Assembly: GCA_900315095.1 (NCBI GenBank)
Contig: OMXS01000009.1
Location: 45,784 to 109,783 of the forward strand
Direction: 5' to 3'
DNA length: 64,000 bases
DNA from: an uncultured Prevotellaceae bacterium
GTDB lineage: Bacteria; Bacteroidota; Bacteroidia; Bacteroidales; Bacteroidaceae
This document shows, piece by piece, positions 6,199-29,348 of this stretch. The notes under the pieces were generated by a model. The model did not search any database and was not told the origin of the DNA. It saw nothing but the letters and a program-made list of their open reading frames with translations. Both the position numbers and the translations under genes were made by a program. Numbering within the stretch: the stretch's first letter is position 1; every line of letters starts with the position of its first letter.

Positions 6199-7539
6199 TT
6201 ATGAACTTTTTGAACTCATGTTAATATAGAACTTTCTATCTATTTTCCCGTTAAAGGTCCTTTTAACACATTCTACCTTTTCATAAAGCATTGGCACCTT
6301 ATAAGGTTCAAGCCTTGACTTAAGGAATAGAGCCAGCTGTCGTTTATTTATGTTTATCCCCTCATTTTCCACATATAACAACTTAAGTGCCGAGCCTGTA
6401 ATTGGATGTCGAACAGGTATACATACACAATCTGAAATGCCAGGATAAGAAAGTACTGCATTTTCTACTTCTAAAGGAGCAACCTTAAAACCACCTACAT
6501 TGATGACGTCATCTTCTCTTCCCATCAGATGCAACATACCTTCTTCGTCAAGAATGCCCATGTCTGAGGTGTAAATAGTTCCGTTCTTCAGGACCGAGGA
6601 AGTCCTTTCAGAATCACCAACATATCCTGTCATGATTGTCTCACCCTTACATGCGATCAATCCTTGATCCGTAATGATTACCTGTGAGTGCTTCATAGGT
6701 TTCCCCAGACATCCTGCTATACATCTCCCGTCATTGTAATTATAGGTACAGATGATTCCCGTTTCTGTAGAAGCGTAGGTGTTATACAACCGACTGTTCG
6801 GCAGCAACTTGCATAATGCCTCCATGTCTGCTTGAGAGATTGCTGCGGCACCCGTCTCTATGAAATCTATCTTGTCTTTTAAAAGTGCCAATCTTTCAGA
6901 GCAGAACAGCAACAAGATTCTGATATTTGCAGGAACTAAGAATGTCGCCATCTTGGAGGAAGGGTAATCGAAAGCCTCAATGAATTTGTTCATGTCCTTC
7001 ATCCCGTCAACAATAATGAGCGTAGCGCCCAAGATGATAACAGGATATATCTTTGAAAGACTTCCTATATGATTAAGCGGTCCATTAACCACAAAGGCCA
7101 AATCATGACTAAAACCTTGTCCGGCAATCAGGTTCTCTGCATCAGCAATAATCGCACGATGGCTGATCATGACCCCCTTCGACAGTCCTGTCGTTCCTGT
7201 AGTATATAGTATGTCGGCAGTGTCCTCTGGAACAGTATGCTGCTCCAACTCTTTTGCTATCTTGCAGAACGTCTCTTCCGGTATATTCTGCTCTAATGGG
7301 GTGACAACACACCCTAATTGATGTAAGGCAAAATAAGTAACCAGATAATCTATTGTCGGGAACGCACGCAAACAGACAATATGTCCCTTTTGCGGATATG
7401 ACGTCCTTAATTCTTCCATCCGGGAAACGACTCTGTCATACAACTCTTCATAGGTACACTGCTCTTGTCCACAGACCATAGCGGTCTTGTGAGGATACCG
7501 TTTAGCGTTGCTCTCAAGATAATCTTCTAAATGCATCAT
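6199..7539 (-). CDS. AMP-dependent acyl/aryl-CoA or acyl-ACP ligase (ApeH-like)
   Basis: 446-residue class I adenylate-forming enzyme. Motifs in order: YTTGTTGLSKG (phosphate loop, about residues 111-121), YASTETG near 260, GREDDVINVGGFKV near 340 (hinge), and NGKIDRK with the catalytic Lys near 430. It would activate a carboxylic acid with ATP and pass it to an acyl carrier protein. In aryl-polyene clusters the equivalent ApeH loads the aromatic starter acid. It is the last gene of the 24-gene cluster, 82 bp after an ACP gene, which supports an ACP partner. Substrate (4-hydroxybenzoate, cinnamate or other) cannot be read from sequence. Start may be either of two adjacent Met codons. Confidence 0.9.
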   Translation of the reverse strand: MMHLEDYLESNAKRYPHKTAMVCGQEQCTYEELYDRVVSRMEELRTSYPQKGHIVCLRAFPTIDYLVTYFALHQLGCVVTPLEQNIPEETFCKIAKELEQHTVPEDTADILYTTGTTGLSKGVMISHRAIIADAENLIAGQGFSHDLAFVVNGPLNHIGSLSKIYPVIILGATLIIVDGMKDMNKFIEAFDYPSSKMATFLVPANIRILLLFCSERLALLKDKIDFIETGAAAISQADMEALCKLLPNSRLYNTYASTETGIICTYNYNDGRCIAGCLGKPMKHSQVIITDQGLIACKGETIMTGYVGDSERTSSVLKNGTIYTSDMGILDEEGMLHLMGREDDVINVGGFKVAPLEVENAVLSYPGISDCVCIPVRHPITGSALKLLYVENEGININKRQLALFLKSRLEPYKVPMLYEKVECVKRTFNGKIDRKFYINMSSKSS

Positions 7540-7621
7540 TACTTGAATTTCTTTCGACCTTTTCCTTGCCTCGGCTGAGTCGATGCAAGCATCGCCTCTG
7601 CTCTCGGCTGCATGAAAACGT

Positions 7622-7846
7622 TCATTTTTCAGATAGTTTCTTTTCTACTAAGGACACTATACTATCAAGTGTCTTTAAGTTCTTGGGGGTCGCATCTGTT
7701 GACTCCATCTTAATACCAAACTCATCAGATAAAAGCATGAGAATGGTAGTGACACCCAAGGAATCCAGCTCACTAAACAGGAACTCTGAATCAAAATCCA
7801 CCAATGGCAGGGCATCCTCTAATAAGTTTCTAATTCTTTCTTTCAT
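7622..7846 (-). CDS. Acyl carrier protein (third ACP of the cluster)
   Basis: 74-residue acyl carrier protein with the 4'-phosphopantetheine attachment Ser29 in ELDSLGVTT, flanked by acidic helices. Its start codon overlaps the exporter stop (TAATG), so translation is probably coupled. Lying just ahead of the ligase gene, it is a natural acceptor for the activated starter unit. The helix II region (LDSLGVTTILMLL) is shorter in acidic residues than in the other two cluster ACPs, suggesting that the three carriers have different partners. Confidence 0.9.
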   Translation of the reverse strand: MKERIRNLLEDALPLVDFDSEFLFSELDSLGVTTILMLLSDEFGIKMESTDATPKNLKTLDSIVSLVEKKLSEK

Positions 7847-10758
7847 TATCGTTGTGGAATTATTATCGGATTGTATTTACTATAGACTCTCAGATCTTCT
7901 TCTGAGGGTTCTATCATCACTAATTGCAGATGTTTATGTTTTTGGCATAACAGTTCTATTTGCTCTGCATCTTTTTTCATCTCTATTCTCAGTCTGGGAG
8001 CAATGCGTTCCGCACTATAACGGGCCACATCATATTCATCCGCATCATTAGCATAAGCATAAACGTCTGCCTCTGGACGCATCACGGCAATAAGAAGAGA
8101 GCACTCCCCCCACCCGTTATTGATTATTGCGAAGGATGTAGTATCTGACTGTCTGCCAATAGCCATAAAGTCAGATTGATATTGTTTTAGCCTCCTTTTC
8201 ACAGAGGAATAGATTTCTACGCCTTTATACCGATAGCAGTCTTTCACAAATTGTATATGATCATCCTTCCGGGGTTTGATGAGGAGGTTCCGTAACGTGA
8301 TAGGACGTAAGCGGGAACCCTGTTTACCCTCTACCAGCCAGCGGAAGATGAGCGGGGGAAACAGATAAGCCATCAGCACTACGGAGAACATGCCGACAAT
8401 GGTTACTTTTGCCAAGGATTGTAATGCAGGATGCTTAGCAATAATCAAAGCACCTATGCCAACAAACATAATTAATGCAGAGATGATGATACTGCTCTTG
8501 TAGGAGGAAAGCATCTTTCTGCGATACGCATACTCATACTGACAACCTTCGGTGATGAAAATGGTATAATCGTCTCCTTGGCCGAAGATGAACGTTGCAA
8601 GAATAACATTCACCACATTGAACTGGATTCCCAACAATGACATCATGCCAAGTATCCACACCCAACTTAATGCCATAGGCAAGAACGACAGCATGGCAAG
8701 TTCGATAGAACCCAAAGAGAACCAGAGGAAGAAGAATACAATCAATCCGCATGCCCATCCGATATAATTAAAATCATCGGAAAGCCGAGTCGCAATGGAA
8801 GTGTTCATACTCGGCACGTCAAACGCATATACTTCGGAAGAGCAACCTTGAATTTGATGAACAATATCAGATGTTAAGGACGGTTGCGTCTGAAGGGTCT
8901 GAATGACATGATAAGTATGACTGACACTATCGGATATAATATTTGTCGGGAATGCCAATGTATACAACGACTCTAAGCCGGTAGCATCGCCTGCCTTGAA
9001 TGGTGTATGCAACAACTTGTAGAACTCATCAAAGGTCTCAGGGATAAACCCTTCTGCTTGCGCTGCTTTTTTTACAGCCGTCTCTACCCTACCACCATAT
9101 TTAGCAATGAAAGTGTTCCACTTGTTTAGTCTCTTTTCCTGTTCCCCCTTAGAACATATAAACTGATGGCAGTCATGGAAGTCTGAGATTTCTCCTTTCT
9201 CTTTCATTTCCTCTACCTTCGACCTGACTGACATACTCTTGTCTAAAGCCTTATCCAATGAAGAATCGGAAGATACCACATAGACACTCTCCAAAGAGGT
9301 AGATGCTGGCTTCATGCTTTGCAAGTAGGCTAAGTCTTCCTTTTGGTCGTCTGTCATATAATTAATGTGACTGATATCGGGATCAAAAGTCGTTTTAAAA
9401 CTAAAATACCCAAAGACAAATGTCAGTATTACAACTATCCATACCACCCTATGATTGCTTTCTAAAGAAAACTCGCTCATCCTGTTCAACAGACGGCTCT
9501 GTACATTTTGCTTTCCACGTCTTAAGATATGAGGAAGATATAACAAAACAAACAATATAGTACCTACCAGTAACAAAGAACTGAAAAGTCCCAAGTCTCT
9601 CAGAGCCACTGACTCCAAAGGCACTAAGGCTAAGAAGGCACCTACCGTCGTGATATTCCCCACCACCAAAGGCATGGCAATCTCTTTTAAGGCGGCTTTT
9701 ACCGTTGGGGTATGCTTTAAGTGAGCAATCAGATGCAATGGATAGTTGACCGCGATTCCTACTATCACGGATGAGATTCCTATGACTATCAACGAGACAT
9801 TGTTGTGTATGAGGGTTAATGCACCCATCGCGAAGAGCCATCCCCATGCAACGGATATCACAATGAGCAAGATATTCCTGATGTCACGAAAAGCATAAAA
9901 TAGCAGCATCACGATAATCACGATGGCAATCGCCAAAGCCGTCAGGCTGTCTGTTTTTATCTGTTTGGCATTACCTACCGCAATGATGGGACCTCCTGTA
10001 AAGTGAATATCAATGAAAGGATACTTCTCTGCTGTTTGGTGAGCACAAGAGGAAAGAAGGCTATAAAGTTGAGCATTACCATCTGTCTCACTCGATCCAT
10101 AGGGTGAATCCAGCATGATGATAGCCTTCTTCATATCTGGCGTGAAGATATAGCCCTCGTAATTCTCATAGTTTAGACTTGAACCATTCTGAAGTTTCGC
10201 AGCAACGGGAGTAAAAAAGTTTAAGGGGTCACGCTGAAGATTATCAGACAACAGACTTGTTGCTGGAAGCATCATCATTTGTTTATCGTTATAAACCTGT
10301 GAAGGAATGTATCCCGGGTCTTCTAACAAGCTATCGAACCTACAATAATCCTCATCTGTCAAGAAACATGGTATATGCTGATAGATAAAGGACAGTGTTT
10401 CCGTCATCTTTTCCGTATCTATCTGACTGACAAGGTTTCGAACCTCCTTTTCTGTATCCTTCGTTTTCAATAGTTCCACATAATCATCTATTGCCTGAAT
10501 GATAGAATCAGGATCAGATTTGGTGGAATCCGCATATTGGAAGATGACAAAAATCCTGTTTGTACCTGATATGCTCTGATATACCTTTAATGCCTTGTTG
10601 TATTTGTTGTTAAGTGGCAGGAATGCAGAGATGTCCTCTTGATAGGTCTGTTTAAGCAATAAGACCGATAAGAGAACTGTCAGAAGAATGAAAGAAAGCC
10701 AGCATACTGTTCTTTGCCGTCTCATCCATTCATATATTCGAATGATAAATGCCACCAT
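7846..10758 (-). CDS. MMPL/RND-family lipid exporter with extra C-terminal soluble domain
   Basis: 970 residues with the RND/MMPL layout: an N-terminal membrane helix, a large periplasmic loop (about 35-250), a bundle of five or six helices, a second long loop (about 450-650) and a second helix bundle ending near 810. Both halves contain hydrophobic sterol-sensing-like segments. Such proteins export lipids and polyketides; the aryl-polyene equivalent is ApeM. Residues ~830-970 form an additional cytoplasmic domain in which AIINNGWGECSLLIAV followed by VYAYANDAD resembles a degenerate Rossmann/SAM-methyltransferase fold. It follows the acyltransferase gene by 29 bp and overlaps the ACP start by one base. 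Confidence 0.9.
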   Translation of the reverse strand: MVAFIIRIYEWMRRQRTVCWLSFILLTVLLSVLLLKQTYQEDISAFLPLNNKYNKALKVYQSISGTNRIFVIFQYADSTKSDPDSIIQAIDDYVELLKTKDTEKEVRNLVSQIDTEKMTETLSFIYQHIPCFLTDEDYCRFDSLLEDPGYIPSQVYNDKQMMMLPATSLLSDNLQRDPLNFFTPVAAKLQNGSSLNYENYEGYIFTPDMKKAIIMLDSPYGSSETDGNAQLYSLLSSCAHQTAEKYPFIDIHFTGGPIIAVGNAKQIKTDSLTALAIAIVIIVMLLFYAFRDIRNILLIVISVAWGWLFAMGALTLIHNNVSLIVIGISSVIVGIAVNYPLHLIAHLKHTPTVKAALKEIAMPLVVGNITTVGAFLALVPLESVALRDLGLFSSLLLVGTILFVLLYLPHILRRGKQNVQSRLLNRMSEFSLESNHRVVWIVVILTFVFGYFSFKTTFDPDISHINYMTDDQKEDLAYLQSMKPASTSLESVYVVSSDSSLDKALDKSMSVRSKVEEMKEKGEISDFHDCHQFICSKGEQEKRLNKWNTFIAKYGGRVETAVKKAAQAEGFIPETFDEFYKLLHTPFKAGDATGLESLYTLAFPTNIISDSVSHTYHVIQTLQTQPSLTSDIVHQIQGCSSEVYAFDVPSMNTSIATRLSDDFNYIGWACGLIVFFFLWFSLGSIELAMLSFLPMALSWVWILGMMSLLGIQFNVVNVILATFIFGQGDDYTIFITEGCQYEYAYRRKMLSSYKSSIIISALIMFVGIGALIIAKHPALQSLAKVTIVGMFSVVLMAYLFPPLIFRWLVEGKQGSRLRPITLRNLLIKPRKDDHIQFVKDCYRYKGVEIYSSVKRRLKQYQSDFMAIGRQSDTTSFAIINNGWGECSLLIAVMRPEADVYAYANDADEYDVARYSAERIAPRLRIEMKKDAEQIELLCQKHKHLQLVMIEPSEEDLRVYSKYNPIIIPQR

Positions 10759-10787
10759 CTTACCTTTGTACTTTGAACTTTTTATCT

Positions 10788-11915
10788 CTATTTATTGTCA
10801 ATAGGATTGGCGTAAATACCTAAGAATATATCCTTAAGACGCTCCATGTCGCACGTATCATATTTATCAAGCTTTGATAACCTATAAGTAAATGCGTCAT
10901 ATTGTTCCTCAGAATACATAGATTTATATTTAGAATTACCATACAACAAGTCATGAGCAATATAGTTGTTAGGATATAGCCTGTAGGCAAGATTAATTCT
11001 TCTATCTATCAGTTTGGCTACTGACTTATGGTATTCGTTGTTCGTCTGTCCTTCAAAAGAACTGAGTTCTGCAAGAGAGATAGGCCTGCATATCTCAAAG
11101 TGGACCCGGCCCTTGGGTTGGAGGATACCCGTTAATATACTATTTAAGTCCTCACCGGGTTTCTTCGTATAACGCGTAAACTGAGATTCGTATAGTTCTA
11201 GAGACTTAAGAATGTCACAGGATTCCCACTCATATGATACCGATACCGGTACGATATTAAGGTCTGCCAACGCCTTAATTTTATCTTTCGGCTCACTCAT
11301 ACAAAACATTTTTATAATGCCTTGGTCTGTGGTATCGATTCCATTCTTTGTCCTGCCATTACGTTGTGCAATCCATACAGACTCACCCTTTTCTGTGATA
11401 CAGTAACGAATATATTCAGACAGATGCATGGAAGCCCTGTAGAAATCTTTAATGTCTCCTCCTGGACGTTCCACCTTGAACATCTTGTTACATTTACCGA
11501 CATCAATAACAACGGGATTAATCATAAGATTTGCGCCAAATGTTATTTCGGTGGTTTCAAATCCATTAATGACAAAGAAATATTGTAACAAGCTGGCATC
11601 AAGCATTATATCCCTGTGATTGGAGACAAATAGATACCGTTTCTTGGAATCCAGGAATTCCAAACCAGAACAGGAGAAATCAGAAATACTACGAGCAATA
11701 ATCTGTTCGTTAACCTTACACATCGTATCTTCTTGAAACTCTTTAGTCGTAGCATAAGAACTGACTCTTTTCCGCACATCTTCTAAGGGCTCGTTGGGGA
11801 AGACATAAGAAGCCAGTAACGGAAACACATCACACTGGGCAATACGCTTCATCGCTGCAGGAATCTCATCCTCATAGTACGGACGGATGTCGTCAAATTT
11901 GGGATTCTTCATCAT
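10788..11915 (-). CDS. PlsB-like glycerol acyltransferase (ApeD-like)
   Basis: 375-residue membrane-associated acyltransferase. The catalytic HX4D motif is present as SNHRDIMLD near residue 100, followed by GANLMINP near 130 and AQRNGRTKNG near 185, the latter replacing the common EGxR block in PlsB-like enzymes. It would transfer the finished acyl chain from a carrier protein to a glycerol-type or other hydroxyl acceptor. Position and family match ApeD of aryl-polyene clusters. Its start overlaps the stop of the upstream hydrolase gene by four bases (ATGA), indicating coupled translation. Confidence 0.87.
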   Translation of the reverse strand: MMKNPKFDDIRPYYEDEIPAAMKRIAQCDVFPLLASYVFPNEPLEDVRKRVSSYATTKEFQEDTMCKVNEQIIARSISDFSCSGLEFLDSKKRYLFVSNHRDIMLDASLLQYFFVINGFETTEITFGANLMINPVVIDVGKCNKMFKVERPGGDIKDFYRASMHLSEYIRYCITEKGESVWIAQRNGRTKNGIDTTDQGIIKMFCMSEPKDKIKALADLNIVPVSVSYEWESCDILKSLELYESQFTRYTKKPGEDLNSILTGILQPKGRVHFEICRPISLAELSSFEGQTNNEYHKSVAKLIDRRINLAYRLYPNNYIAHDLLYGNSKYKSMYSEEQYDAFTYRLSKLDKYDTCDMERLKDIFLGIYANPIDNK

Positions 11916-12757
11916 ATCTTCAGTATTTTATTTATCCATTTTATAAATTCTTCTTTCCACTGTCTGCACTCTGGCGATCCCTTTATGTCACTCGCACCAA
12001 ATCCATGTCCACCAGTTTCGTAAAGAAGGTATTGGTGAGATATCTTCTGTGATGTCAGGGCGGAGTCTAGTAATATGGAATTATGATAATCCACGACTGG
12101 GTCGTCTTTACAGTTTATTAAGAATACGGGCGGACAATCAGACGGCACATGTTTCTCCAACGACAACAACTCCCTCAACTCCTTGTTCCTTACCCTTGAA
12201 TCGCCTAACAGCCCTCTACGTGAACGCTTATGCACACAAGGAGCCGTCATTGTCACCACGGGATAGACAGGAACGACAAATGCTGGCCAATCATCTTTTT
12301 CGAACAATTCCACGCTTGACATAACCAGATGTCCTCCCGCAGAAAAACCCATTACACCAATCTTATCTGGATCTATGTCGTATTCCTTAGCATGGTTTTT
12401 CACATAACGGATAGCCTGTCGTAAGTCATCTTGAGGATCTGGATAGCGATTTCCACGGAAGATATAGCGGAAATGGGTTATAAAGGCAGGCACATAGGCT
12501 GTCCTGTAATCCAGCACAAAGGCTGTGATGCCATTCTCCTGCAACCAGTGTGCTACCTTATCGCCCTCTGTTTCCGTATCGTGCCAGAAATAACTACCGC
12601 CAGGACATACGATGATGGCGACATGACGGGACTTCTGAGCGGGGAAAGCATCCATCCCCACCTTCGGCCTACCAGACTCTCCCTCCCAGATGTTTATCTG
12701 TGCTAAGGAGCTCAGGCTGAGCATCAAGTATACTATGATGATTAACCTCTGTCGCAT
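11912..12757 (-). CDS. Secreted alpha/beta hydrolase (esterase-like)
   Basis: 281 residues with an N-terminal signal peptide (hydrophobic core to about SLAQ20), so probably periplasmic. The fold is the BD-FAE/esterase type: oxyanion region IIVCPGGSYFWH, nucleophile Ser139 in GFSAGG, acid Asp219 or Asp223 in the KDDPVVD block, and His251 in GGHGFG. Family members cleave esters of sugars or lipids. Within this cluster it could trim or transfer the exported polyene, or remove an acyl protecting group; that is inference. The start overlaps the preceding oxidoreductase gene by 16 bp. Standard aryl-polyene clusters lack such a gene. Confidence 0.85.
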   Translation of the reverse strand: MRQRLIIIVYLMLSLSSLAQINIWEGESGRPKVGMDAFPAQKSRHVAIIVCPGGSYFWHDTETEGDKVAHWLQENGITAFVLDYRTAYVPAFITHFRYIFRGNRYPDPQDDLRQAIRYVKNHAKEYDIDPDKIGVMGFSAGGHLVMSSVELFEKDDWPAFVVPVYPVVTMTAPCVHKRSRRGLLGDSRVRNKELRELLSLEKHVPSDCPPVFLINCKDDPVVDYHNSILLDSALTSQKISHQYLLYETGGHGFGASDIKGSPECRQWKEEFIKWINKILKI

Positions 12758-14253
12758 TCGTTTATCTTGTTAATCACGTGATTAATACCTAAGATGGCTT
12801 CGCAAGTATTGATTGCCGTAAGTGGAACCCCACAAAAGCCATGCATATTATTGTTTTGCCCTGTGAGAAAGAGATTGCTGACTTTCGTGACCACAGGAAC
12901 CTGTGATAACGCAATATGATGACAGTCTTTGCTGAAGCCGCAGATGCTCCCCTCTTTGACGTGATAATAGTCACGGATGGTTAAGGGGGACGAAGCATTG
13001 ATGTCTGCGATACAATCCGTGAATCCCGGGTGGATATCCTCTATCTGGCTCAGCAAGGCTTCGGTCTTCTCTTTCTTCCATTCTTCGTAATCCTCACCTC
13101 GATGTCCTACGACAGTATGTTCCCATTTCTTCACCATCTCAAAGGGCATGGGGGCTGTCACAAGGACTTTTGTTGCATATTGTCCCTGTTGATGATTGGG
13201 CGGTGTCATGAAAAGGAAACCTAATGGCCACGGCTTTCCTGGATTACTGAAGTTCCATACATCATCATAGCACGTCATATAATACTCGGAATAATTGATG
13301 TACGGAAAACTTCTTTCCTTTAACTTAATATATAACGAGAAAGCAGAATGGGAATTGGGAATGGAATTCAAACGCTCCCGATAGGACTTGGGCATCGCCT
13401 TCTCGTCCATCAACTGAAGCATCGTACACGGATGGATATCCGAGATATAATAATCTGCCTGATACCGTTCTCCTCTCTTGGTTTGCACGTAATCCACCAC
13501 CCTATTATTCACTTCTATCCATTCTACTTCTTCATTGGTGATGACATATCCGCCATGTGAGGTTATTACCTGCGCCAGCAGGTCTGCAAAATGGTGACTG
13601 CCGTCCACGAAACGACTGGCACCATTGATATACAATGTACTAATGATAGCATGGATATATGCCGGCGTCTGATGAGCACGTCCTCCATACAGAGGATTCA
13701 TATAGGCTAAAACACTTCTTAGTTTCCTATTATCTGTATATTTGGCTATAAAGTCATTGGCAGACATCAAGAAGTCAGAGGAACCAGAGAAGAGACTCAT
13801 CGCGCCCTCTGAAGGACGAAGATTAAATAGATCCACATGAGCTGTCAGGTCAAAGACTGCCTCCACATATCTTTCCAGATTCTCTCTCTCTTCAGGGAAA
13901 CTGGCAGCTAGAGAATCCACAAACCCACGTTTCCCTTTGGCGATGGTATAACACTCATGGTCTTCCGCAAAATACAAGCGGTCTGTACATTCATCATCCA
14001 CGTCCATCAGCTTTACCTGGTCAAAAATACCGAGATAATTACATATCTTTCTGATATTCCCACCTGTCTGCATACCTCCTATCACATGCATGCCCGTGTC
14101 GAAAGTCTCACCAAACCTTTTAAAGGACTGAAGTCCCCCGCCTATCGTGGCGTTTTTCTCCAGCACAGTTACATGAAGCCCCTCCTTTGAAAGGATGGCT
14201 CCTGTAAAGAGCCCTCCAAGTCCACCGCCTATGATGACAACTTTTTTCTTCAT
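12742..14253 (-). CDS. CrtI/phytoene-desaturase-like FAD oxidoreductase 2
   Basis: 503 residues. The N-terminal dinucleotide fold VVIIGGGLGGLFTGAILSKE and the acidic end of the second strand (VLEKN) identify FAD binding. TGMHVIGG near 52 and the C-terminal GQNNNMHGFCG block belong to the phytoene desaturase/retinol saturase (CrtI/CrtO) superfamily. Members add, isomerise or reduce double bonds in polyenes and carotenoids. It starts within the stop of a second copy of the same family (ATGA overlap). The pair likely arose by duplication; divergence is considerable, so the two may form a heteromer or act on different positions. Exact reaction is not determinable. Confidence 0.88.
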   Translation of the reverse strand: MKKKVVIIGGGLGGLFTGAILSKEGLHVTVLEKNATIGGGLQSFKRFGETFDTGMHVIGGMQTGGNIRKICNYLGIFDQVKLMDVDDECTDRLYFAEDHECYTIAKGKRGFVDSLAASFPEERENLERYVEAVFDLTAHVDLFNLRPSEGAMSLFSGSSDFLMSANDFIAKYTDNRKLRSVLAYMNPLYGGRAHQTPAYIHAIISTLYINGASRFVDGSHHFADLLAQVITSHGGYVITNEEVEWIEVNNRVVDYVQTKRGERYQADYYISDIHPCTMLQLMDEKAMPKSYRERLNSIPNSHSAFSLYIKLKERSFPYINYSEYYMTCYDDVWNFSNPGKPWPLGFLFMTPPNHQQGQYATKVLVTAPMPFEMVKKWEHTVVGHRGEDYEEWKKEKTEALLSQIEDIHPGFTDCIADINASSPLTIRDYYHVKEGSICGFSKDCHHIALSQVPVVTKVSNLFLTGQNNNMHGFCGVPLTAINTCEAILGINHVINKINECDRG

Positions 14254-18637: not shown

Positions 18638-18639
18638 CT

Positions 18640-18993
18640 TTATTTCGCTATTAAGAAACAACCTAACATTATTAATACAACACCTATCCATTTTACGGCT
18701 GAAACCTCTTCGTGGAAAAAGAGAATTGCAGCCAGCATACCGAATACATAACTAAGACTTATCATAGGATATGCAGTAGCAAACGGGAAGTATTTTACGA
18801 TATACATCCATAAAAGGGAAGCCGCCCCAAAGAACAGGCCACATGCTGCAAACTGCCAGTTAGAAAGCAGAGCAACCCAGAAGTCCTTCGTCCATGAAAA
18901 GGCAGGCATCTTTATCAAGGCAAATTTTAAGAAAACCTGCCCGCCACAGAGTAACACACTCTGCAAAATCGCTAACGGTATTATCTTCCACAT
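18640..18993 (-). CDS. Small four-helix DMT/EamA-type membrane protein
   Basis: 117 residues from the ATG at 18993 with four hydrophobic helices and end sequence WIGVVLIMLGCFLIAK, as in EmrE- and ArnE-type half-transporters. These act as dimers; ArnE-like members flip lipid-linked sugars across the inner membrane. Given the glycosyltransferase in this operon, flipping of a glycosylated lipid intermediate is a reasonable guess. It overlaps the ketosynthase stop upstream by 13 bp and is two bases from the LolA-like start. A longer reading from 19065 would lie inside the ketosynthase gene and lacks support. Confidence 0.82.
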   Translation of the reverse strand: MWKIIPLAILQSVLLCGGQVFLKFALIKMPAFSWTKDFWVALLSNWQFAACGLFFGAASLLWMYIVKYFPFATAYPMISLSYVFGMLAAILFFHEEVSAVKWIGVVLIMLGCFLIAK

Positions 18994-20749: not shown

Positions 20750-21007
20750 TTATTTCTTACGGTTCTTACTGACAAAATCTGCAATAGTACCTACACTCTT
20801 AAAGATTGCCTTTCCTTCTGCAGGGTTTGCCAGCCTGATGCCATATTTCTTTTCTAACAAGACTATGAGTTCCAAAGCATCGATGGAATCTAGTCCTAGA
20901 CCTTCACCAAACAAAGGTGAGTCGGTCTCTATATCCTCTGGTGTCATTTCTTCCAGATTAAGGACCTCAATAATCTGTTTCTTAAGTTCCAAAACTAATT
21001 CTTCCAT
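20750..21007 (-). CDS. Acyl carrier protein (second ACP of the cluster)
   Basis: 85-residue ACP with the phosphopantetheine attachment Ser41 in GLGLDSIDALEL and the LLEKKYGI helix typical of polyketide and APE carriers (ApeE/ApeF type). It lies between two ketosynthase genes, with gaps of 11 and 5 bp, which suggests that it carries the growing polyene during elongation. The basic tail (SKNRKK) is unusual and could help membrane association. Confidence 0.93.
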   Translation of the reverse strand: MEELVLELKKQIIEVLNLEEMTPEDIETDSPLFGEGLGLDSIDALELIVLLEKKYGIRLANPAEGKAIFKSVGTIADFVSKNRKK

Positions 21008-22824: not shown

Positions 22825-23241
22825 TTATATGACATTCCAGCGTCGCTTCCATTCCATATAGAAATCAGGGTTGTCCCAGATTAATTGATATTCAGTATCC
22901 ATAAACACTTGTACCGAATGACCTGTAGCTATCAGGCTCTCATCTTCTGTGTCATGAATCTCGTAATCAAACACTATCTTTGCTGCCTCCGTAGGGCGAT
23001 AGATGATATCTATTCTTGGCTTCATGCCGTATTTGATGGGTTTCTTCCATTGAAAACTCATCTCTACCAGAGGCGCAAAGCAGCCATGATCGAAGAAGCC
23101 CATATAAGTAAGGTCATATTTCCTGCCGAATTCCTCACGGGCATCCTCGAAATAGAGCATGTACGAGCCATGCCATACCACATTCATCGAATCTACTTCG
23201 CTAAACCGTATCTCTATCTGTTTTGACGCTTTCAACTCCAT
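22825..23241 (-). CDS. 4HBT-type hotdog thioesterase (ApeK-like)
   Basis: 138 residues. The 4-hydroxybenzoyl-CoA thioesterase signature is clear: Asp17 in RFSEVDSMNVVWHGSYM (general base/nucleophile position), then YFEDAREEF. Such enzymes hydrolyse acyl- or aryl-thioesters from CoA or ACP. In aryl-polyene clusters ApeK-type proteins are thought to release or proofread intermediates. It follows the other hotdog gene with no intergenic base, so the two are translationally coupled. Confidence 0.9.
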   Translation of the reverse strand: MELKASKQIEIRFSEVDSMNVVWHGSYMLYFEDAREEFGRKYDLTYMGFFDHGCFAPLVEMSFQWKKPIKYGMKPRIDIIYRPTEAAKIVFDYEIHDTEDESLIATGHSVQVFMDTEYQLIWDNPDFYMEWKRRWNVI

Positions 23242-23715
23242 CTATTCTTCTTTACTTTTTATGGCAATTTTCATTTCCGTAGTCACAAGTTGCTTGTCAC
23301 CACAGTAGATTGTTGCTTCTGCTAAAATCATACCGAAGAGTTCTTCCTTGACATCCACATTGGTAACGATGGTGTCACCTATCTGCGGTAATGCTGATAT
23401 CATTAAATTACGAACTGCTCCAATAAACCCTATCTGAATTCCCTTTTTAAAGATATACTTGTTAACATATCCTATTCGTGCGGCACAGGTCTGGGCAATG
23501 TTCTCGATAAGTCCGAAAGCGCTGAGACAACCATTCTCAACGAAAATGTTATCTGCAAGAATATCGGTCTCTGTTGTCGTTCGAACCATATCAAACCGAA
23601 CCAACCGGCTAACCATCACAAACGGCTCTTGTTGGGGCAAGAGTTCATGAATGTCTATGCTTCTAAGAAAAGCAGTATCTGGCTGTTTAAAATCTGTCAT
23701 ATTTACGCTTTCCAA
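23242..23715 (-). CDS. FabZ-like hotdog protein keeping the catalytic Glu (ApeP-like)
   Basis: 157 residues from 23715, or 152 from an in-frame ATG at 23700 that sits just after the upstream stop. The FabZ opening motif is recognisable as HELLPQQEPFVMVSRLV. In the active-site helix, GLIENIAQTCAARIGY keeps the catalytic Glu (E71), but where FabZ has GHFPG the sequence is DNIFVENG, with no His. It is the mirror image of the 17241-17621 protein, which has the His and lacks the Glu. Together they could build one working dehydratase site per heterodimer, as proposed for ApeI:ApeP pairs. Confidence 0.85.
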   Translation of the reverse strand: MESVNMTDFKQPDTAFLRSIDIHELLPQQEPFVMVSRLVRFDMVRTTTETDILADNIFVENGCLSAFGLIENIAQTCAARIGYVNKYIFKKGIQIGFIGAVRNLMISALPQIGDTIVTNVDVKEELFGMILAEATIYCGDKQLVTTEMKIAIKSKEE

Positions 23716-24581
23716 AATTCAAAGAAGTTATACCACTGTGTCGGATAGAGTTTTAGCATACGCTCTACTTCAGCAATGTAACCATCGGCCAACTGGGATA
23801 TTTGTTGTTTACGAGAGGCCTCCTTGTCATAAGGTAAGGGCTTTACATAAATCTTATATCCCTTTACTGAGGTCTTCATTACATTTACTGCAAGGACATT
23901 CAATCCACGCATGGTCGCAACGGCAAATGGTCCCATAGGTATTTGAGCATCAGCCCCCAATAAGGTGACTTTGAGAGCCTTTTTTGACCCTAATATCCTG
24001 TCTGCGGGCATGCTGACAGTTTCTCCCTGTTGAAGGGCATGATCAATTAGGAACAAATGGCTCATGTCTTCTTTTACGGGAATCATTCGTATGTTAGTAT
24101 CCGCAAACATCTGGTTTCTATAGTCCATGATTGACTGTTTCTCACCGAAGAAAACCAATGTGTTAAATGGTTTGTCTTCAGCAACAAGTGTATAGCCAGC
24201 TATTTCATAATTGCCAATATGAGAACTTAATAGTATAAAACCATCCTGTTGCTTTGCCAAACTCAGGAAATGGTCGTAACCCTCAATATCCATATGAAAT
24301 CGCTTACCAGCATACATGGCAAATCTGTCAATGACTACTTGACCAAACATATAGTGATTCTGGTACGTCTTTATGAAAGCTTTTATAGGCGACAACTTCC
24401 ACCGCTCACGAAAGTAATGGTATATTGGCTTAAAGCCAGGACGCAGCAAACAAGGAGGAATCACAAACACATAGGTAAAGAAATAGATAATTCTGATATC
24501 TATGCCTCGCAACAGTTTGATGAGCCATTTGTGCATCAAGCTATTGCCGAAAGTTGTGCCTTCCCACTTTTTCTCCGTCAC
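23703..24581 (-). CDS. LpxL/HtrB-type lipid acyltransferase
   Basis: 292 residues of the lysophospholipid acyltransferase superfamily, lipid A acyltransferase branch. It has an N-terminal membrane anchor (IIYFFTYVFVIPPCLL), the catalytic HX4E as SSHIGNYEIAG near residue 118, and PMGPFAVA near 220. Family enzymes transfer acyl chains from ACP to a lipid at the inner membrane. Here the donor may be the cluster's ACP-bound polyene. It lies five bases after an ACP gene and overlaps or touches the downstream hotdog gene. One of three acyltransferase modules in the cluster. Confidence 0.88.
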   Translation of the reverse strand: MTEKKWEGTTFGNSLMHKWLIKLLRGIDIRIIYFFTYVFVIPPCLLRPGFKPIYHYFRERWKLSPIKAFIKTYQNHYMFGQVVIDRFAMYAGKRFHMDIEGYDHFLSLAKQQDGFILLSSHIGNYEIAGYTLVAEDKPFNTLVFFGEKQSIMDYRNQMFADTNIRMIPVKEDMSHLFLIDHALQQGETVSMPADRILGSKKALKVTLLGADAQIPMGPFAVATMRGLNVLAVNVMKTSVKGYKIYVKPLPYDKEASRKQQISQLADGYIAEVERMLKLYPTQWYNFFEFWKA

Positions 24582-24586: not shown

Positions 24587-24829
24587 TTATCCTACCTTGC
24601 TTTCAATATAATCACAAAACTGACTTAGCGTTGTCACGTCTTTCATCTCTTCCGGCTTGATTTTAAAGCCAAAGTTCTTTTCTACGATGACGACGATGTC
24701 AACAAAGTCAAGGCTGTCAATACCCATATCGTCTTTGAGCTTGGCATCGTCGCTAATCTTGTCCTCGTCTATTTCGAGGTCATCAATCAGGAAAGCCCTA
24801 ACCTTCTCTTCAATCTCTTTTCTTGTCAT
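24587..24829 (-). CDS. Acyl carrier protein (first ACP of the cluster)
   Basis: 80-residue ACP with attachment Ser39 in DDMGIDSLDFVDIV and a strongly acidic body. The DSLDFVD helix II motif is closest to fatty-acid and aryl-polyene ACPs. It lies between the methyltransferase (12 bp upstream) and the LpxL-type acyltransferase (5 bp downstream), suggesting that methylation or lipid transfer may occur on this carrier. Confidence 0.94.
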   Translation of the reverse strand: MTRKEIEEKVRAFLIDDLEIDEDKISDDAKLKDDMGIDSLDFVDIVVIVEKNFGFKIKPEEMKDVTTLSQFCDYIESKVG

Positions 24830-24841
24830 TATCTTTATATT

Positions 24842-25951
24842 TTATTTGTTAACAATCTTGCAAACTATTATAGAATGCCCTTGTCCCAGATGGTCATGAA
24901 TTTGTTCTATTTCCAAGCCGGCCTCATTGATACAATATTCCATGTCCTCTGTATTATACATCTTTGAGTTGCCATTGGCAATAGCGGAAAAATACAGGCT
25001 TGTCATAGTCAAACAGAATGCTGCGGGTTCAAAGCGCTGGCGATCCCAGAGGGTCTCCATGATGAACAGACGTGTTCGCTCGGTCATCGCATCTTTGGCA
25101 CGCTTTAAGATACAGATAATCTCATCCATACTGAAACAATCGAGGAACTGGCTCATCCATATTGCATCAAGTCCACCTTCCCGTTGAGGGAATACGGCAT
25201 TGGAATCAAGCAGATTAATGCCATACCCTTTGATGCGTTCTGCCCCTGTTTTGTCTGAAACGTTGTCTCGCATCAACTCTATTTGTTGTGGCAGATCCAA
25301 AATGACCACCTCCACTTCCGGGTTATAGCTTACACACCGTAATGCCCACTTTCCCGTATTACCACCAACATCATAGAGTGATCTGACCTGATACTTATCA
25401 AAGATGATTTTCAAAGCCTCAGGGAAAGACGAATCACTATAGAAATGATCAAAACCAAACCAGCTTTTTTGTACTTGTTCCGGCAAACTGGACAGACCTT
25501 CATAAACCGTAGGCCATGATCCGAAATGCTTCAGCCCCTCAGGTTTCCCATTACGCAGAGACTCCTCCAAATGAAACCATCCCTCATAATTGACATCGTG
25601 GTTAAAGTCAATATTTACACGCGTGGCTGGGTCATTTATCAGAAACCATCCCGTTTTGGATAATGAATACTTGTTTGTATTGACATCCACAAGGACAGTT
25701 CCAATACACAAAGAAGCCTCCAAAAGACATTTGACTGCATAATCGGAATAGTCTGTCTGCTCGCATATCTCCTGTCTAGTAAGGCCACCGTCAGAGTCGC
25801 GCAAAAGGTCAAAGATACCCCATTTGAGCATAATACGCGAGGCCTGAAATACAACAGGTCCCCACGCAATGAACTCAGCCAGCCTCTGGGCTTCACGGGC
25901 AGACAGAGTCTCCTTTGTATATTTCTCTACTAATGAGGGAAATAGAATCAT
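24842..25951 (-). CDS. SAM-dependent O-methyltransferase (ApeB-like)
   Basis: 369 residues with the two-part layout of plant-type/ActO methyltransferases: an N-terminal winged-helix dimerisation region (about 30-110: LKWGIFDLLRDSDGGLTRQE) and a C-terminal Rossmann domain with SLYDVGGNTGKWAL near 190 and VVILDLPQ as motifs I and II. Such enzymes methylate aromatic hydroxyl or ring positions. ApeB methylates the aryl head in known aryl-polyene pathways, the likely role here. Gap to the ACP gene is 12 bp. Cytoplasmic, no signal peptide. Confidence 0.9.
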   Translation of the reverse strand: MILFPSLVEKYTKETLSAREAQRLAEFIAWGPVVFQASRIMLKWGIFDLLRDSDGGLTRQEICEQTDYSDYAVKCLLEASLCIGTVLVDVNTNKYSLSKTGWFLINDPATRVNIDFNHDVNYEGWFHLEESLRNGKPEGLKHFGSWPTVYEGLSSLPEQVQKSWFGFDHFYSDSSFPEALKIIFDKYQVRSLYDVGGNTGKWALRCVSYNPEVEVVILDLPQQIELMRDNVSDKTGAERIKGYGINLLDSNAVFPQREGGLDAIWMSQFLDCFSMDEIICILKRAKDAMTERTRLFIMETLWDRQRFEPAAFCLTMTSLYFSAIANGNSKMYNTEDMEYCINEAGLEIEQIHDHLGQGHSIIVCKIVNK

Positions 25952-25994
25952 CTTATTTAATACGTGCTAATTCGTAACCTTAATCAATAAAATG

Positions 25995-26504
25995 TTATTT
26001 GTTAGGCAATTCTGACTTCAAAATACTTCCCAATTTTTTTCCTGTGACTGTAGCCCAGATCTTCATTCGAGCAAGTTTGGTACCAATCATGAAGGGGGGC
26101 TCTTTACCGCCTGTCAGTTCCTCCACCGTGAAATAGACATTTCCACTACTGTCTATAATGTCTGCATCACATATGATATAGCCATCATCTGTAATTGTAT
26201 TAACTTTTATCACAATTGTGTATTTCGCATCTCTATAGTCACCTATTTTATATGACTTTCCGATACCCACATTTGCTCCTGACCTGAAATTACGGACAAT
26301 TGTTGGCTTATCTTCTTCCCAGTCTTTCTCGTATCTTGAGAACTCATCTTCGCTCATTCCACAAATAAGAGCATCCGAGAAATCCATTCTTAGATTCATT
26401 CGGGCTCCCTTAATATTCTTGGGAAGATTGTTTTTTGTAACAGTCTGTGCATAGCTGCTGGCAGCTATGACCATAAACAACATAATTAATACTTTCTTTT
26501 TCAT
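25995..26504 (-). CDS. Exported protein of unknown function in the aryl-polyene operon
   Basis: 169 residues with a signal peptide (MKKKVLIMLFMVIAASSYAQ) and no lipobox. The mature part has beta-rich blocks YTIVIKVNTITDDGYIICDA and SSGNVYFTVEEL, like many Bacteroidetes periplasmic proteins that bind or respond to ligands, but I cannot place it in a family. Its start is one base from the ketosynthase stop, so it is clearly in the operon. It has no evident counterpart in proteobacterial aryl-polyene clusters and may serve the Bacteroidetes envelope export route. Confidence 0.78.
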   Translation of the reverse strand: MKKKVLIMLFMVIAASSYAQTVTKNNLPKNIKGARMNLRMDFSDALICGMSEDEFSRYEKDWEEDKPTIVRNFRSGANVGIGKSYKIGDYRDAKYTIVIKVNTITDDGYIICDADIIDSSGNVYFTVEELTGGKEPPFMIGTKLARMKIWATVTGKKLGSILKSELPNK

Positions 26505-26505
26505 A

Positions 26506-27732
26506 TTAAGCTAATTTTTTAATAACTAATGCACTATTTGTACCGCCAAAACCGAACGAGTTGCTGAGCACGGTATTTACCTCCGTTTCTACTGTCTTGG
26601 CAGTAAGATTAATCTTTTCAGAATATTCATCAGGATTCTCAAAGTTGATGTTTGGAGCCACAAAGTTGTTTTGCATCATGATGATGCTGTACACAATCTC
26701 GCTGGCACCAGCCATCCAACATTCGTGACCTGTCATGGACTTGGTAGAACTTATCAAAGCCCTTTGTCCCCTGAACAATCTGTCAAGAGCAATGGCCTCA
26801 TACATATCGCCTTGAAGTGTCGATGTAGCATGGGCATTGATATAGTCTATATCGTCAAGAGCAATACCCGCATCCTTGATTGCCCTTGACATAGCAATAA
26901 CGCTGCCATTATCACTAGGCTCAGAAATGCCACCACCATTGCTGGAGAATCCATATCCCGCAACCTCTGCAAGTATATTGGCTCCACGAGCAACAGCATG
27001 GTCATAGTCTTCTAACACCAAAGCAGCTGCGCCACCACTAGGAATCAGGCCATCTCTATCTCTGTCGAACGGACGGCTTGCCTTTGCGGGCTCGTCCATA
27101 CGGACGGAAAAAGCCCCAAGCGCATCGAATGAAGCCATAGAGTAGTAGTTGGTCTCTTGGGCTCCTCCACAAAGAACCATATCCTGTAGTCCTTGCTTTA
27201 TCATCATGTATCCCAAACCAATAGAATGGCTACCACTAGCGCAGGCCGCACTAATAGTAAAGTTAACTCCACGGAGATGGAAAATGGTACTAAGGTTCAT
27301 ATTAACCGTCGAGTTCATCGACTGGAAGATAATACCATAACCTAACATCGCGGAATCATGCTTCTCATCCATAATCTTTGACGCCTCAATAACTGGCTTT
27401 GCAGAAGAGTCATTACCAAAGATACAACCTACTTCGTTATCTCTCAAGTACTGATCGTCAATTCCTGCTTGTTCAAAAGCCTGCCGACTTGCCATATAGG
27501 CATATTGTGCCTCCTCTGACATACCGGCACGAGTATGCCTGTCTAACATCTGCTTCGTGATAACTGGCGTTTCCACTATTCCTGTTAGACCTGAACGATA
27601 CCCATATTCCAGACGTTCTGGCTGCAATCCAATGCCAGACTTCCCTTCATAAAGGGACTGCCTGACCATTTCGATATCCGTACCTAGGCAAGACCAAATA
27701 CCCATGCCTGTAATAACTACTCGTTTTGTCAT
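26506..27732 (-). CDS. FabF-type beta-ketoacyl-ACP synthase (third KS of the cluster)
   Basis: 408 residues, normal FabF length. The triad is complete: C164 (SAACASGSHS), H301 (NAHATSTLQGD) and H336 (KSMTGHECWM), with the gatekeeper-region and C-terminal SFGFGGTNSAL block. It condenses acyl-ACP with malonyl-ACP. Lying near the 5' end of the operon beside the FabG-type reductase, it is the best candidate for the main chain-elongating synthase (ApeO/ApeR type). Six bases separate it from the SUMF1-like gene upstream. Confidence 0.93.
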   Translation of the reverse strand: MTKRVVITGMGIWSCLGTDIEMVRQSLYEGKSGIGLQPERLEYGYRSGLTGIVETPVITKQMLDRHTRAGMSEEAQYAYMASRQAFEQAGIDDQYLRDNEVGCIFGNDSSAKPVIEASKIMDEKHDSAMLGYGIIFQSMNSTVNMNLSTIFHLRGVNFTISAACASGSHSIGLGYMMIKQGLQDMVLCGGAQETNYYSMASFDALGAFSVRMDEPAKASRPFDRDRDGLIPSGGAAALVLEDYDHAVARGANILAEVAGYGFSSNGGGISEPSDNGSVIAMSRAIKDAGIALDDIDYINAHATSTLQGDMYEAIALDRLFRGQRALISSTKSMTGHECWMAGASEIVYSIIMMQNNFVAPNINFENPDEYSEKINLTAKTVETEVNTVLSNSFGFGGTNSALVIKKLA

Positions 27733-27738
27733 AGTATC

Positions 27739-28605
27739 CTATTTAATAGAATCAGCACTTATTGCTATTCTAATACAAGCCTCAATATCATCAATACTCA
27801 TCGTTCCTGGTTTCCTGTCCCATTTGTTTTTCCCCACTCTATAAGAACGATATACATGCGACTTTCCCGAAAGAGGGCCTTGTGGATTGGTTTGTATACC
27901 TGGGGTATACTTCTCATAAAAATCAGAACACCATTCTAACTTTTTTTCTGATCCCAATACAGAATCTGCATTCGGCATTAAAGATGCATACTCCCATTCT
28001 GCCTCCGTCAACATTCTATAAGGTTTTTGGGTGGCAGATGCTATCTTTTCTACAATGTGATTTGCAGATTTCCATTTATTTACATAGTATTTATCTTTAT
28101 AAGAACCCTTTCCTTTTCCTAATAGTTTATATGCGGTTTCTTCCTTTATACATTGTTCGCTTATATAATAAGAAGAAAGGTTTACTTGGTGTACAGGCTC
28201 ACTTTTCATTCCTAGGCTTCCATTTCCATCATATCCCATGTTAAATGAGCCGCCCCTAACCAATATCATTTTTATTGTTTGCCCTTCAATATCTAAGGAA
28301 TAACTTTCTGGATAATCTTTATTGTCTGTTATTTCATAATACCCAACTTGGCCACTCGCAAAAGCATTATTTGCTTCAGCAGAAACTGTCGCCTCTTTTT
28401 TTGCCGCTTCGACAGATTTAACATTTGCCATCAGAACTGTAGTTTCTTTGCCTGCAACCTTGAAGGTCACATGATCTAAAGGGTCAAACTCTACCAGTTC
28501 TCCTATAACAACTACATCATTTTTCAAAGTCACCCTTACTTGTGAACTTTGAGCATATGTTAATGTGCTAACAATGATAAAACAAAACAATAAAATCTTT
28601 TTCAT
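27739..28605 (-). CDS. Exported protein with a SUMF1/formylglycine-generating-like domain
   Basis: 288 residues with a signal peptide (MKKILLFCFIIVSTLTYAQ). Residues ~25-75 form a small beta domain (VVIGELVEFDPLDHVTFKV). From ~115 the FGE-sulfatase pattern appears: VRGGSFNMGY, EPVHQVNLSSYYISE, then YRMLTEAEWEYAS and LEWCSDFY. The usual long C-terminal stretch with the conserved GGSW and RxxFR motifs is shortened or replaced by VYRSYRVGK. True FGEs need two active-site cysteines; only one Cys (EWCSD) is visible in this part, so it is more likely a non-enzymatic binding protein of the type used in Bacteroidetes gliding/secretion complexes. Role in the cluster is unknown. Confidence 0.8.
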   Translation of the reverse strand: MKKILLFCFIIVSTLTYAQSSQVRVTLKNDVVVIGELVEFDPLDHVTFKVAGKETTVLMANVKSVEAAKKEATVSAEANNAFASGQVGYYEITDNKDYPESYSLDIEGQTIKMILVRGGSFNMGYDGNGSLGMKSEPVHQVNLSSYYISEQCIKEETAYKLLGKGKGSYKDKYYVNKWKSANHIVEKIASATQKPYRMLTEAEWEYASLMPNADSVLGSEKKLEWCSDFYEKYTPGIQTNPQGPLSGKSHVYRSYRVGKNKWDRKPGTMSIDDIEACIRIAISADSIK

Positions 28606-28616
28606 ATTCTATGTTT

Positions 28617-29348
28617 TTATGTATATAGTCCTCCATTGATGTTAATTACTTCTCCTGTTATATATGCCGCATCCTCAGAGACGAGGAAACCCACTAAAGC
28701 TGCCACTTCTTCAGGCTTGCCAAATCTTCCCACAGGAACCATTCTCTTAAGTTCATCCTGAGGCAAGTCCTTTGTCATATCTGTTTCGATGAAACCGGGA
28801 GCAATAGCATTTACGGTGACATTTCGAGGAGCCACCTCTTGAGCCAAGGCTTTAGTCGCACCTATCAATGCCGCTTTTGCCGTACTGTAATTTGTTTGGC
28901 CAGGCATACCTTTAACACCTGACAAAGAAGAGATATTGATTATTCTTCCACCCCTTTTCCTAGGCATCATATGTTTCAGGAGTCTTCTTGTCAAATAAAA
29001 GAATCCGTTTAAGGTCGTATCGATAACACTATGCCATTCCTCGTCAGACATCATAAACATAACGTTATCACGACGGATTCCGGCATTGTTAACCAACACC
29101 TCTATATAATCGTCATTATGGTTTTTCTCCCATAAATCGATAGCATTATCTATCTCTTCTTTGCTCCTAACATCAAATTTCAGCAATTCCACATGACCGC
29201 CCATATTCTCAATGGAAGCCTTGACTTCCTCAGCTGCGTCTTGATTTGACTGAAAGTTAACAATCACAGAATAACCCAAAGAGGACAACTTTAAACAAAT
29301 TGCCTTTCCAAGCCCCCTCGAACCTCCTGTTACCAAAGCATACTTCAT
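28617..29348 (-). CDS. 3-oxoacyl-ACP reductase (FabG-like, ApeQ-like)
   Basis: 243-residue short-chain dehydrogenase. It has the NADP(H) motif TGGSRGLGKA (7-16), NNAG (87-90), and the catalytic Ser141, Tyr154 and Lys158 (YSTAK), ending with the family block GEVININGG. It reduces the beta-keto group after each condensation so that dehydration can produce the conjugated chain. It is the first gene of the 24-gene run and lies about 180 nt downstream of a likely promoter. Being in the cluster, it is probably the dedicated polyene ketoreductase instead of the housekeeping FabG. Confidence 0.93.
   Translation of the reverse strand: MKYALVTGGSRGLGKAICLKLSSLGYSVIVNFQSNQDAAEEVKASIENMGGHVELLKFDVRSKEEIDNAIDLWEKNHNDDYIEVLVNNAGIRRDNVMFMMSDEEWHSVIDTTLNGFFYLTRRLLKHMMPRKRGGRIINISSLSGVKGMPGQTNYSTAKAALIGATKALAQEVAPRNVTVNAIAPGFIETDMTKDLPQDELKRMVPVGRFGKPEEVAALVGFLVSEDAAYITGEVININGGLYT

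Follow-up and report, generated by a model that had tools for sequence, protein, structure and literature searches.

How is the chain of an aryl polyene (APE) started in a cluster that lacks the known flexirubin initiation genes? The question is raised by a stretch of 64,000 nucleotides from an uncultured Prevotellaceae bacterium (GenBank assembly GCA_900315095.1, contig OMXS01000009.1, positions 45,784 to 109,783 of the forward strand), here called the window, in which 24 minus-strand genes form an operon that, judged from its sequence, is a Bacteroidales APE cluster. PMC6469967 states that, among the classes of biosynthetic cluster, APEs are thought to be the commonest in the human microbiome; few have been characterised so far. 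Flexirubin synthesis in Chitinophaga pinensis is described as starting with FlxA, a tyrosine ammonia-lyase (TAL), and FlxY, a 4-coumarate-coenzyme A (CoA) ligase (PMC3992019). We found that the 3' end of the window operon carries, in place of FlxA and FlxY, genes for an acyl carrier protein (ACP), ACP3, and an AMP-forming ligase, and we consider it likely that FlxA/FlxY initiation has been replaced here by a two-gene loading module that would place an aromatic acid straight onto the dedicated carrier ACP3. The genes on which this reading turns are the following (aa, amino acids; CFT073, the APE cluster of Escherichia coli CFT073):

6199..7539, minus strand: compact AMP-forming ligase, 446 aa, last gene (PF00501, 138.1 bits; PF13193, 35.7)
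7622..7846, minus strand: ACP3, carrier paired with the ligase (PF00550, 28.3 bits; DSL motif by eye)
18014..18691, minus strand: LolA2, periplasmic carrier (NF053544, LolA2_flexi, 209.9 bits, cut-off 125)
24842..25951, minus strand: FlxJ-family methyltransferase (NF053543, 592.8 bits, cut-off 560; 44.5% to the CFT073 methyltransferase)
28617..29348, minus strand: FlxB/FabG-type ketoreductase, first gene (NF053542, FlxB_rubin_SDR, 404.6 bits, cut-off 340; 42% to CFT073 FabG2)

Identity of the cluster and its initiation genes

Because FlxB, FlxJ and LolA2 score above the NCBIfam flexirubin cut-offs and the general APE gene set is present in one cluster (type II ketosynthase (KS)/chain-length factor (CLF), ketoreductase (KR), dehydratases with weak matches, ACPs, thioesterase, acyltransferase, LolA and MMPL), the assignment to APE clusters proposed in a first-pass annotation is upheld; the CFT073 matches cover the KS, KR, ACPs, methyltransferase, thioesterase, GT2-acyltransferase, LolA and MMPL. 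The label "flexirubin-type" fits these three proteins but not the cluster as a whole, since FlxA, FlxY and DarB (resorcinol synthase, dialkylresorcinol ester) were not found in the cluster or the genome. The adenylating ligase, which had been counted among the APE hallmarks, is rather the unusual part of the cluster, being neither a PaaK-like FlxY nor close to E. coli ApeH (24% over 270 aa). It had also been proposed that KS and GT-acyltransferase genes matching only fatty-acid or lipid A pathways would speak against an APE cluster; the top NCBIfam models of the KS proteins are general FabB/FabF models, every one shown below cut-off, so that this comparison is not decisive. The pigment would presumably be membrane-attached and aryl-headed.

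APE clusters are already known in Bacteroidota, and the cluster as such is therefore ordinary. For example, PMC9248904 describes a flexirubin cloud of 268 biosynthetic gene clusters over five Bacteroidetes classes, PMC9177762 numerous arylpolyene clusters in camel-rumen Bacteroidota, and PMC11885536 LolA2/LolB2 as constant in flexirubin-like loci; in addition, BVU_1014 of Bacteroides vulgatus is named as part of an APE cluster (PMC5850320), a locus resembling the window operon in having an LpxL-type acyltransferase within a Bacteroidales APE cluster. What stands out is its initiation module.

The window genome (3.24 Mb, 99.98% complete) contains a single PF00221 gene, which scores 374 bits against FlxA (cut-off 700). 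We rejected it as a TAL, since it is HutH (601, cut-off 539) and lies between hutU (416/375) and hutI (393/298). The best match to the FlxY profile in the genome reaches 209.9 bits, compared with 553-853 for FlxY-type genes, and DarB gave no match at 1e-40 there. It might be supposed that the cluster is an ordinary flexirubin cluster with its TAL encoded elsewhere, as in 23 of the 47 TAL genomes described below TAL is on a different contig from FlxJ or over 35 kb away from it. However, the completeness of the genome, the identity of its lone PF00221 gene and the failure to find FlxY and DarB as well make this explanation barely credible, and it is contradicted unless the HutH homologue deaminates tyrosine. 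DarB was matched (1e-40) in 18 of the 66 FlxJ-family genomes described below. It was above cut-off in two ligase-type genomes of the window's genus, G032 (G032:C60:58186-59316, L042), where it sits inside the cluster, and G018 (G018:C245:993-2123); some ligase-type relatives may thus make the resorcinol ester. (G and L numbers are our handles for genomes and loci.)

Pairing and distribution of the loading module

In every one of the 14 ligase genomes (the window and 13 others), and in G001 and G002 as well, ACP3 is the immediate neighbour of the ligase, with ACP3 cut by a contig end in G018; in stretches from 20 non-ligase genomes ACP3 had no match better than 3e-4. The module lies at the operon 3' end in the window, G035, G016, G019, G062 and G229 and in the shortened operons of G085 and G273; it is inverted near the operon 3' end in G030 and divergent at the 5' end in G012. 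In G032 and G166, which belong to two different families, it is detached and lies just downstream of a carB-like gene (named by eye) on the same strand (L178, G032:C29:27599-29142; L179, G166:C36:23781-25323). In G007 and G018 module and cluster are on different contigs and were not countable as linked or unlinked. G085 also has a ligase paralogue (30% identical, 7e-62) that follows a small ACP-like ORF (open reading frame) in another cluster with reductase-like genes (L181, G085:C63:18991-20531). The constant adjacency and this second ACP-like ORF suggest that the acceptor for the ligase is an ACP and not CoA; a precedent is ApeH of Xenorhabdus doucetiae, described as loading 4-hydroxybenzoic acid (4-HBA) on an ACP without a CoA ester (PMC8253772).

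The ligase might instead load an aliphatic acid, giving a non-aryl polyene or a modified fatty acid. Its best-scoring NCBIfam models do include long-chain acyl-CoA ligases, all 25 shown being below cut-off, but the cluster retains FlxJ, which shares 45% identity with the methyltransferase of the CFT073 APE cluster, an enzyme presumed to modify the aromatic head (PMC8253772), and we regard an aliphatic starter as improbable.

To compare genomes, we used FlxJ, which exceeded the cut-off in 16 of 61 relatives and matched at 1e-80 in 56 of 296 Bacteroidales genomes (32 over cut-off), the window genome being in both collections. The 56, together with 10 from the relatives, make up a set of 66 (42 over the FlxJ cut-off); G001, G002 and G011 (79-86% complete) and six weak sub-cut-off FlxJ matches were left out. 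TAL was called from a PF00221 match of at least 1395 nt that was not of the HutH class, FlxY from at least 553 bits and the window-type ligase from E<=1e-40. TAL and FlxY occurred together in 46 genomes and the ligase alone in 14, while none combined the ligase with TAL or with FlxY; the remainder had FlxY only (G024, G141, G274 and G312), TAL only (G327, with the lowest score) or none of the three (G020). The two initiation modules are thus mutually exclusive in the genomes examined, which are related, so that the counts are given with no p-value.

The calls were upheld by the curated models wherever these were applied: FlxA gave 804-890 bits (cut-off 700) in all five TAL genomes checked (G168, G281, G219, G057 and G129), and FlxY gave 688-721 bits (cut-off 520) in all four checked (G168, G281, G274 and G024). 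The ligase matches were bimodal, with 14 genomes at 1.2e-150 or below and a best value of 4e-31 among 38 of the other 52, searched at 1e-8 (the remaining 14 were not searched to that level). A second set, the 50 lowest-identity loci of 80 named FlxJ loci, which shares at least one genome with the first (L090 = G062), contained FlxA over cut-off in seven loci, the ligase (E<=1e-60) in 32 and both in none. We found no report of the exclusion in the titles or opening abstracts of the PMC literature searched, a weak negative, as few subscription papers were covered.

Several observations weigh against a loading module substituted for FlxA/FlxY. ACP3 and the ligase are about 4 kb apart and on opposite strands in locus L065. 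The best solved-structure matches of the ligase are adenylation domains of nonribosomal peptide synthetases and feruloyl-CoA synthetase, from which neither acid nor acceptor can be read; an AlphaFold2 model (3 sequences; mean predicted local distance difference test 58, much of the middle <50) was too poor for a comparison of binding pockets. Although the window cluster shares with CFT073 the logic of an adenylating ligase plus an ACP, its ligase, at the identity given above, does not appear by sequence to be an ApeH orthologue. UbiC-type chorismate lyase (PF04345) was detected in none of 20 genomes, with E. coli as positive control, and the window genome, being one of them, differs from E. 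coli in having no detected UbiC to supply 4-HBA. In 42 of the 47 TAL genomes the call comes from the PF00221 span criterion, four FlxY matches contain one stop, and 11 of the 50 loci in the second set had neither FlxA nor the ligase. On the contig of FlxJ and no more than 35 kb from it we found TAL in 24 of 47 genomes, FlxY in 17 of 50 and the ligase in 10 of 14, so that the exclusion holds across whole genomes and is not simply an exchange inside the cluster. Lastly, G109 and G312 have an FlxJ-family gene with no recognisable APE cluster around it.

History of the replacement and source of the starter

When 14 cluster proteins from each of 32 clusters were concatenated, the midpoint-rooted tree (28 labelled tips; G109, G244, G312, G141 and G037 left out for little sequence) placed the window's ligase clade as sister to the TAL+FlxY cluster of G219 (100), and the ligase-type G012 and G030 with the FlxY-only G024 (nodes 100). 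The initiation labels need four Fitch changes on this tree, in which some deeper nodes have values of 86-95 and several within the window's clade 41-85. A 2-gene tree with weak nodes was superseded by it, and the tree of the ligase protein itself was not resolved. The two separated ligase groups call either for two or more replacements or for a single one combined with horizontal transfer; the swap of initiation genes seems to have taken place at least twice among gut bacteria.

Two single-contig genomes of the window's genus, both 99% complete, have FlxY over cut-off in full clusters (G274:C1:1794214-1795512 and G024:C1:2529605-2530927) and no PF00221 match at 1e-30, so that their coumarate should come from elsewhere; their state looks like an intermediate needing outside coumarate. 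The starter may accordingly still be a hydroxycinnamate (4-coumarate or ferulate) from plant food, TAL having ceased to be needed in the gut and FlxY having later given way, for the same acid, to the pair of ligase and ACP3. We hold this possible, without favouring it. In addition to these two genomes, the position of the ligase-type G012 as sister of the FlxY-only G024 (100), the labelling of several relatives as coming from ruminant stomachs and the 121-fold preference of C. pinensis FlxY for 4-coumarate over cinnamate given in PMC3992019 agree with it. The BD-FAE esterase of the operon, possibly a feruloyl esterase, does not help, because TAL-positive clusters (G281 and G219) carry one too, and it was rejected as a marker of scavenging; nor was a transporter for the acid identified, though none was searched for.

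A benzoate starter (4- or 3-hydroxybenzoate), as in the APEs of E. coli and Xanthomonas, would need a chorismate-using enzyme of an unrecognised kind. The ligase-to-ACP architecture resembles that of ApeH (PMC8253772), and XanB2-type enzymes are described as providing hydroxybenzoates in other APE producers (PMC3949708). However, chorismate lyase was detected in none of the 20 genomes mentioned above (XanB2/FkbO-type chorismatases were not searched for), and no acid-making gene was seen beside the detached module in G032 and G166 when the neighbours were read by eye, so that this source appears rather unlikely.

Returning to the replacement of FlxA/FlxY by the loading module, we offer a tentative scenario, in which gut Bacteroidales would have replaced tyrosine-to-coumaroyl-CoA initiation at least twice independently by a mobile ACP-ligase cassette without an acid-making gene; the head would be set by whichever aromatic acid is available from the gut or from central metabolism, probably a plant hydroxycinnamate, and the FlxY-only genomes would be intermediates. 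A clean and repeated swap of the initiation module indicates which genes determine the head group and offers a marker by which Bacteroidales APE clusters can be sorted. It also opens to experiment the question whether gut bacteria assemble a membrane pigment out of aromatic acids that are not of their own making.

Organisation of the operon and its surroundings

Besides the five genes given at the outset, the operon comprises the following, in operon order:

27739..28605, minus strand: predicted secreted accessory protein, FGE (signal peptide by eye; PF03781, 29.2 bits, short FGE-sulfatase-like stretch)
26506..27732, minus strand: stand-alone KS (Cys-His-His by eye; 35.5% to CFT073 C_RS05565)
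25995..26504, minus strand: hyp169, accessory protein, 169 aa (signal peptide by eye; without Pfam or NCBIfam match)
24587..24829, minus strand: ACP1, acyl carrier protein (PF00550, 53.3 bits)
23703..24581, minus strand: LpxL/HtrB-type acyltransferase (PF03279, 60 bits; in CFT073 it matches the acyltransferase portion of the GT2 protein)
23242..23715, minus strand: probable hot-dog dehydratase (no Pfam match; FabZ 19.2 bits; CFT073 dehydratase 12.5 bits)
22825..23241, minus strand: 4HBT thioesterase (PF13279, 48.6 bits)
21019..22746, minus strand: KS-CLF1, KS with C-terminal extra domain (PF00109/PF02801; 6qsp_A second-best solved structure, 1.5e-29)
20750..21007, minus strand: ACP2, acyl carrier protein (51% to CFT073 C_RS05630)
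18981..20744, minus strand: KS-CLF2, KS fused to a CLF-like domain (PF00109, PF02801, PF13723; 6qsp_A 5.5e-50)
18640..19065, minus strand: EamA/ArnE-ArnF-like small membrane protein (PF00892, 44.8 bits)
17605..18051, minus strand: LolB2-like protein (NF053540, 29 bits, under cut-off 60)
17241..17621, minus strand: ApeI-like dehydratase (PF22818, 22.7 bits, under cut-off 28.5; ApeI-like/FabA match)
15742..17241, minus strand: GT2 glycosyltransferase-acyltransferase fusion (PF00535 and PF01553; 33% over 229 aa to CFT073 C_RS05605)
14250..15749, minus strand: FAD1, CrtD-like FAD oxidoreductase (TIGR02733, 121.7 bits, under cut-off)
12742..14253, minus strand: FAD2, CrtD-like FAD oxidoreductase (TIGR02733, 125.2 bits, under cut-off)
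11912..12757, minus strand: alpha/beta-hydrolase of the BD-FAE family, esterase (PF20434, 83.9 bits; signal peptide by eye)
10788..11915, minus strand: AT, acyltransferase-like protein (PF01553, 22.9 bits, just below cut-off 23; overlaps the esterase gene)
7846..10758, minus strand: MMPL-family exporter (PF03176, 67.3 bits)

The gene list of the first-pass annotation agrees with this one overall, except that KS-type genes and ACPs number three each, that its "FabZ-like" pair (17241-17621 and 23242-23715) matches dehydratase families weakly, and that it omitted the LolB-like gene (17605-18051) and the ArnE/F-like membrane protein (18640-19065). The tightly packed minus-strand run that it described, from 29348 down to 6199, was confirmed: 21 of the 23 junctions overlap or have gaps of at most 50 bp, the two wider gaps being 82 bp (ACP3 to ligase) and 78 bp. 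The first-start rule makes some overlaps look longer than they are, as with the GTG start of 18640-19065. The operon is more than a chance arrangement, since other genomes preserve the order of its genes. G035 matches 22 of the 24 genes in the same order on one strand, the exceptions being hyp169 (unmatched) and FGE (over 12% only). In none of the 15 relatives compared did a match to FGE extend beyond 12% of its length; those other than G035 show greater rearrangement, are truncated or are interrupted by contig ends. The closest named records at FlxJ are mostly metagenome-assembled genomes of uncultured Prevotellaceae, Prevotella and other Bacteroidales, a similarity that suggests a position near Prevotella.

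Fifteen of the 24 proteins match the CFT073 APE cluster (apeA-R), with E-values of 5e-99 to 1e-4 computed within a small set of 18 proteins from a cluster located by annotation; at the weak end come LolA with 3e-8, the ApeI-like protein with 4e-7, the ligase with 6e-7 and a dehydratase with 1e-4. The other nine, ACP3, AT, the esterase, FAD1, FAD2, LolB, EamA, hyp169 and FGE, are unmatched there. With the flexirubin clusters (flx, dar) of C. pinensis and Flavobacterium johnsoniae the operon shares FlxB, FlxJ and LolA2, as judged by NCBIfam models rather than C. pinensis sequences, and a function set of KS, reductase, dehydratases, acyltransferase, LolA, glycosyltransferase and exporter (PMC3992019). 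It differs in having no detected FlxA, FlxY or DarB, in the added ACP3-ligase pair and in carrying KS and CLF-like domain in one ORF.

The structure 6qsp_A, which we take to be an APE ketosynthase, is outranked by many FabF structures for KS-CLF2, and general FabF structures score well for KS-CLF1 too. In most of the TAL-type clusters compared the two parts of KS-CLF2 are separate ORFs. As a marker of the ligase type, the fusion was rejected as a tendency only: apart from the window, it was found in 9 of 13 ligase, 1 of 15 TAL (G206) and 0 of 4 FlxY-only genomes compared, with no KS-CLF2 match in G037, G109, G244 and two FlxY-only genomes. At the position of the EamA gene, TAL-type clusters have either a deacetylase-like gene, as in G168 and to judge from resemblance also in G057 and G129, or an EamA gene, as in G219. 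AT, beside the esterase, occupies the flxY position of G281, G219, G274 and G024; in the TAL-type cluster of G168, a gene for a C45-family autoproteolytic hydrolase, not present in the window cluster, lies beside FlxY (L145, 12623-14290, minus strand). One or two CrtD-like FAD oxidoreductases occur in many TAL-type and ligase-type Bacteroidales clusters, none being seen in G019, and FAD1 and FAD2 perhaps act in polyene desaturation or isomerisation.

From the sequences we infer all enzyme activities, the direct loading of ACP3 and the aromatic-acid head. The ligase would adenylate an aromatic acid and hand it to holo-ACP3; the KS-CLF proteins and the stand-alone KS would extend this starter with malonyl units on ACP1/ACP2, FlxB reducing and the two hot-dog dehydratases dehydrating in each cycle to give a conjugated polyene. 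FlxJ would probably methylate the aryl ring, the thioesterase, LpxL-like and GT2-acyltransferase proteins may transfer the polyene acid onto an anchoring lipid, and the MMPL, LolA2 and LolB2-like proteins may bring it to the outer membrane. The core steps follow work on E. coli and X. doucetiae, for which PMC8253772 describes ApeH adenylation with direct ACP loading, KS-CLF extension with KR and dehydratases, methylation, release, lipid transfer and export; we argue that initiation alone differs.

A probable promoter element of the operon lies 187 bp before the FlxB start codon:

29528..29535, minus strand: TATCTTTG, read as a -7 element

We take TATCTTTG to be of the Bacteroidota type. Of 42 loci, 27 have the word TAnnTTTG no more than 330 bp upstream of FlxB (no chance control), and none of the seven TAL loci among the 42, where TAL precedes FlxB, has it. 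With regard to the lack of internal terminators noted in the first-pass annotation, a consensus scan gave 7 sites, with 8.6 expected, in one half and 14, with 7.9 expected (standard deviation 2.9), in the other. An Rfam scan at the gathering threshold found no RNA inside the operon, its sole match being a tRNA gene about 0.9 kb upstream (window 30282-30363, minus strand, 54 bits). About 5 kb upstream of the operon, at window 34757-36542 (plus strand), a gene for a PaaK-like phenylacetate-CoA ligase (TIGR02155, 548 bits, cut-off 646), which was ruled out as FlxY (209 bits, cut-off 520), is followed by what we read as a possible ACT-domain gene; a comparable pair lies near the cluster in G273. 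Finally, two very large ORFs of 1594 and 1673 aa, secreted-looking by eye, occupy 48570-58347 of the window (minus strand).

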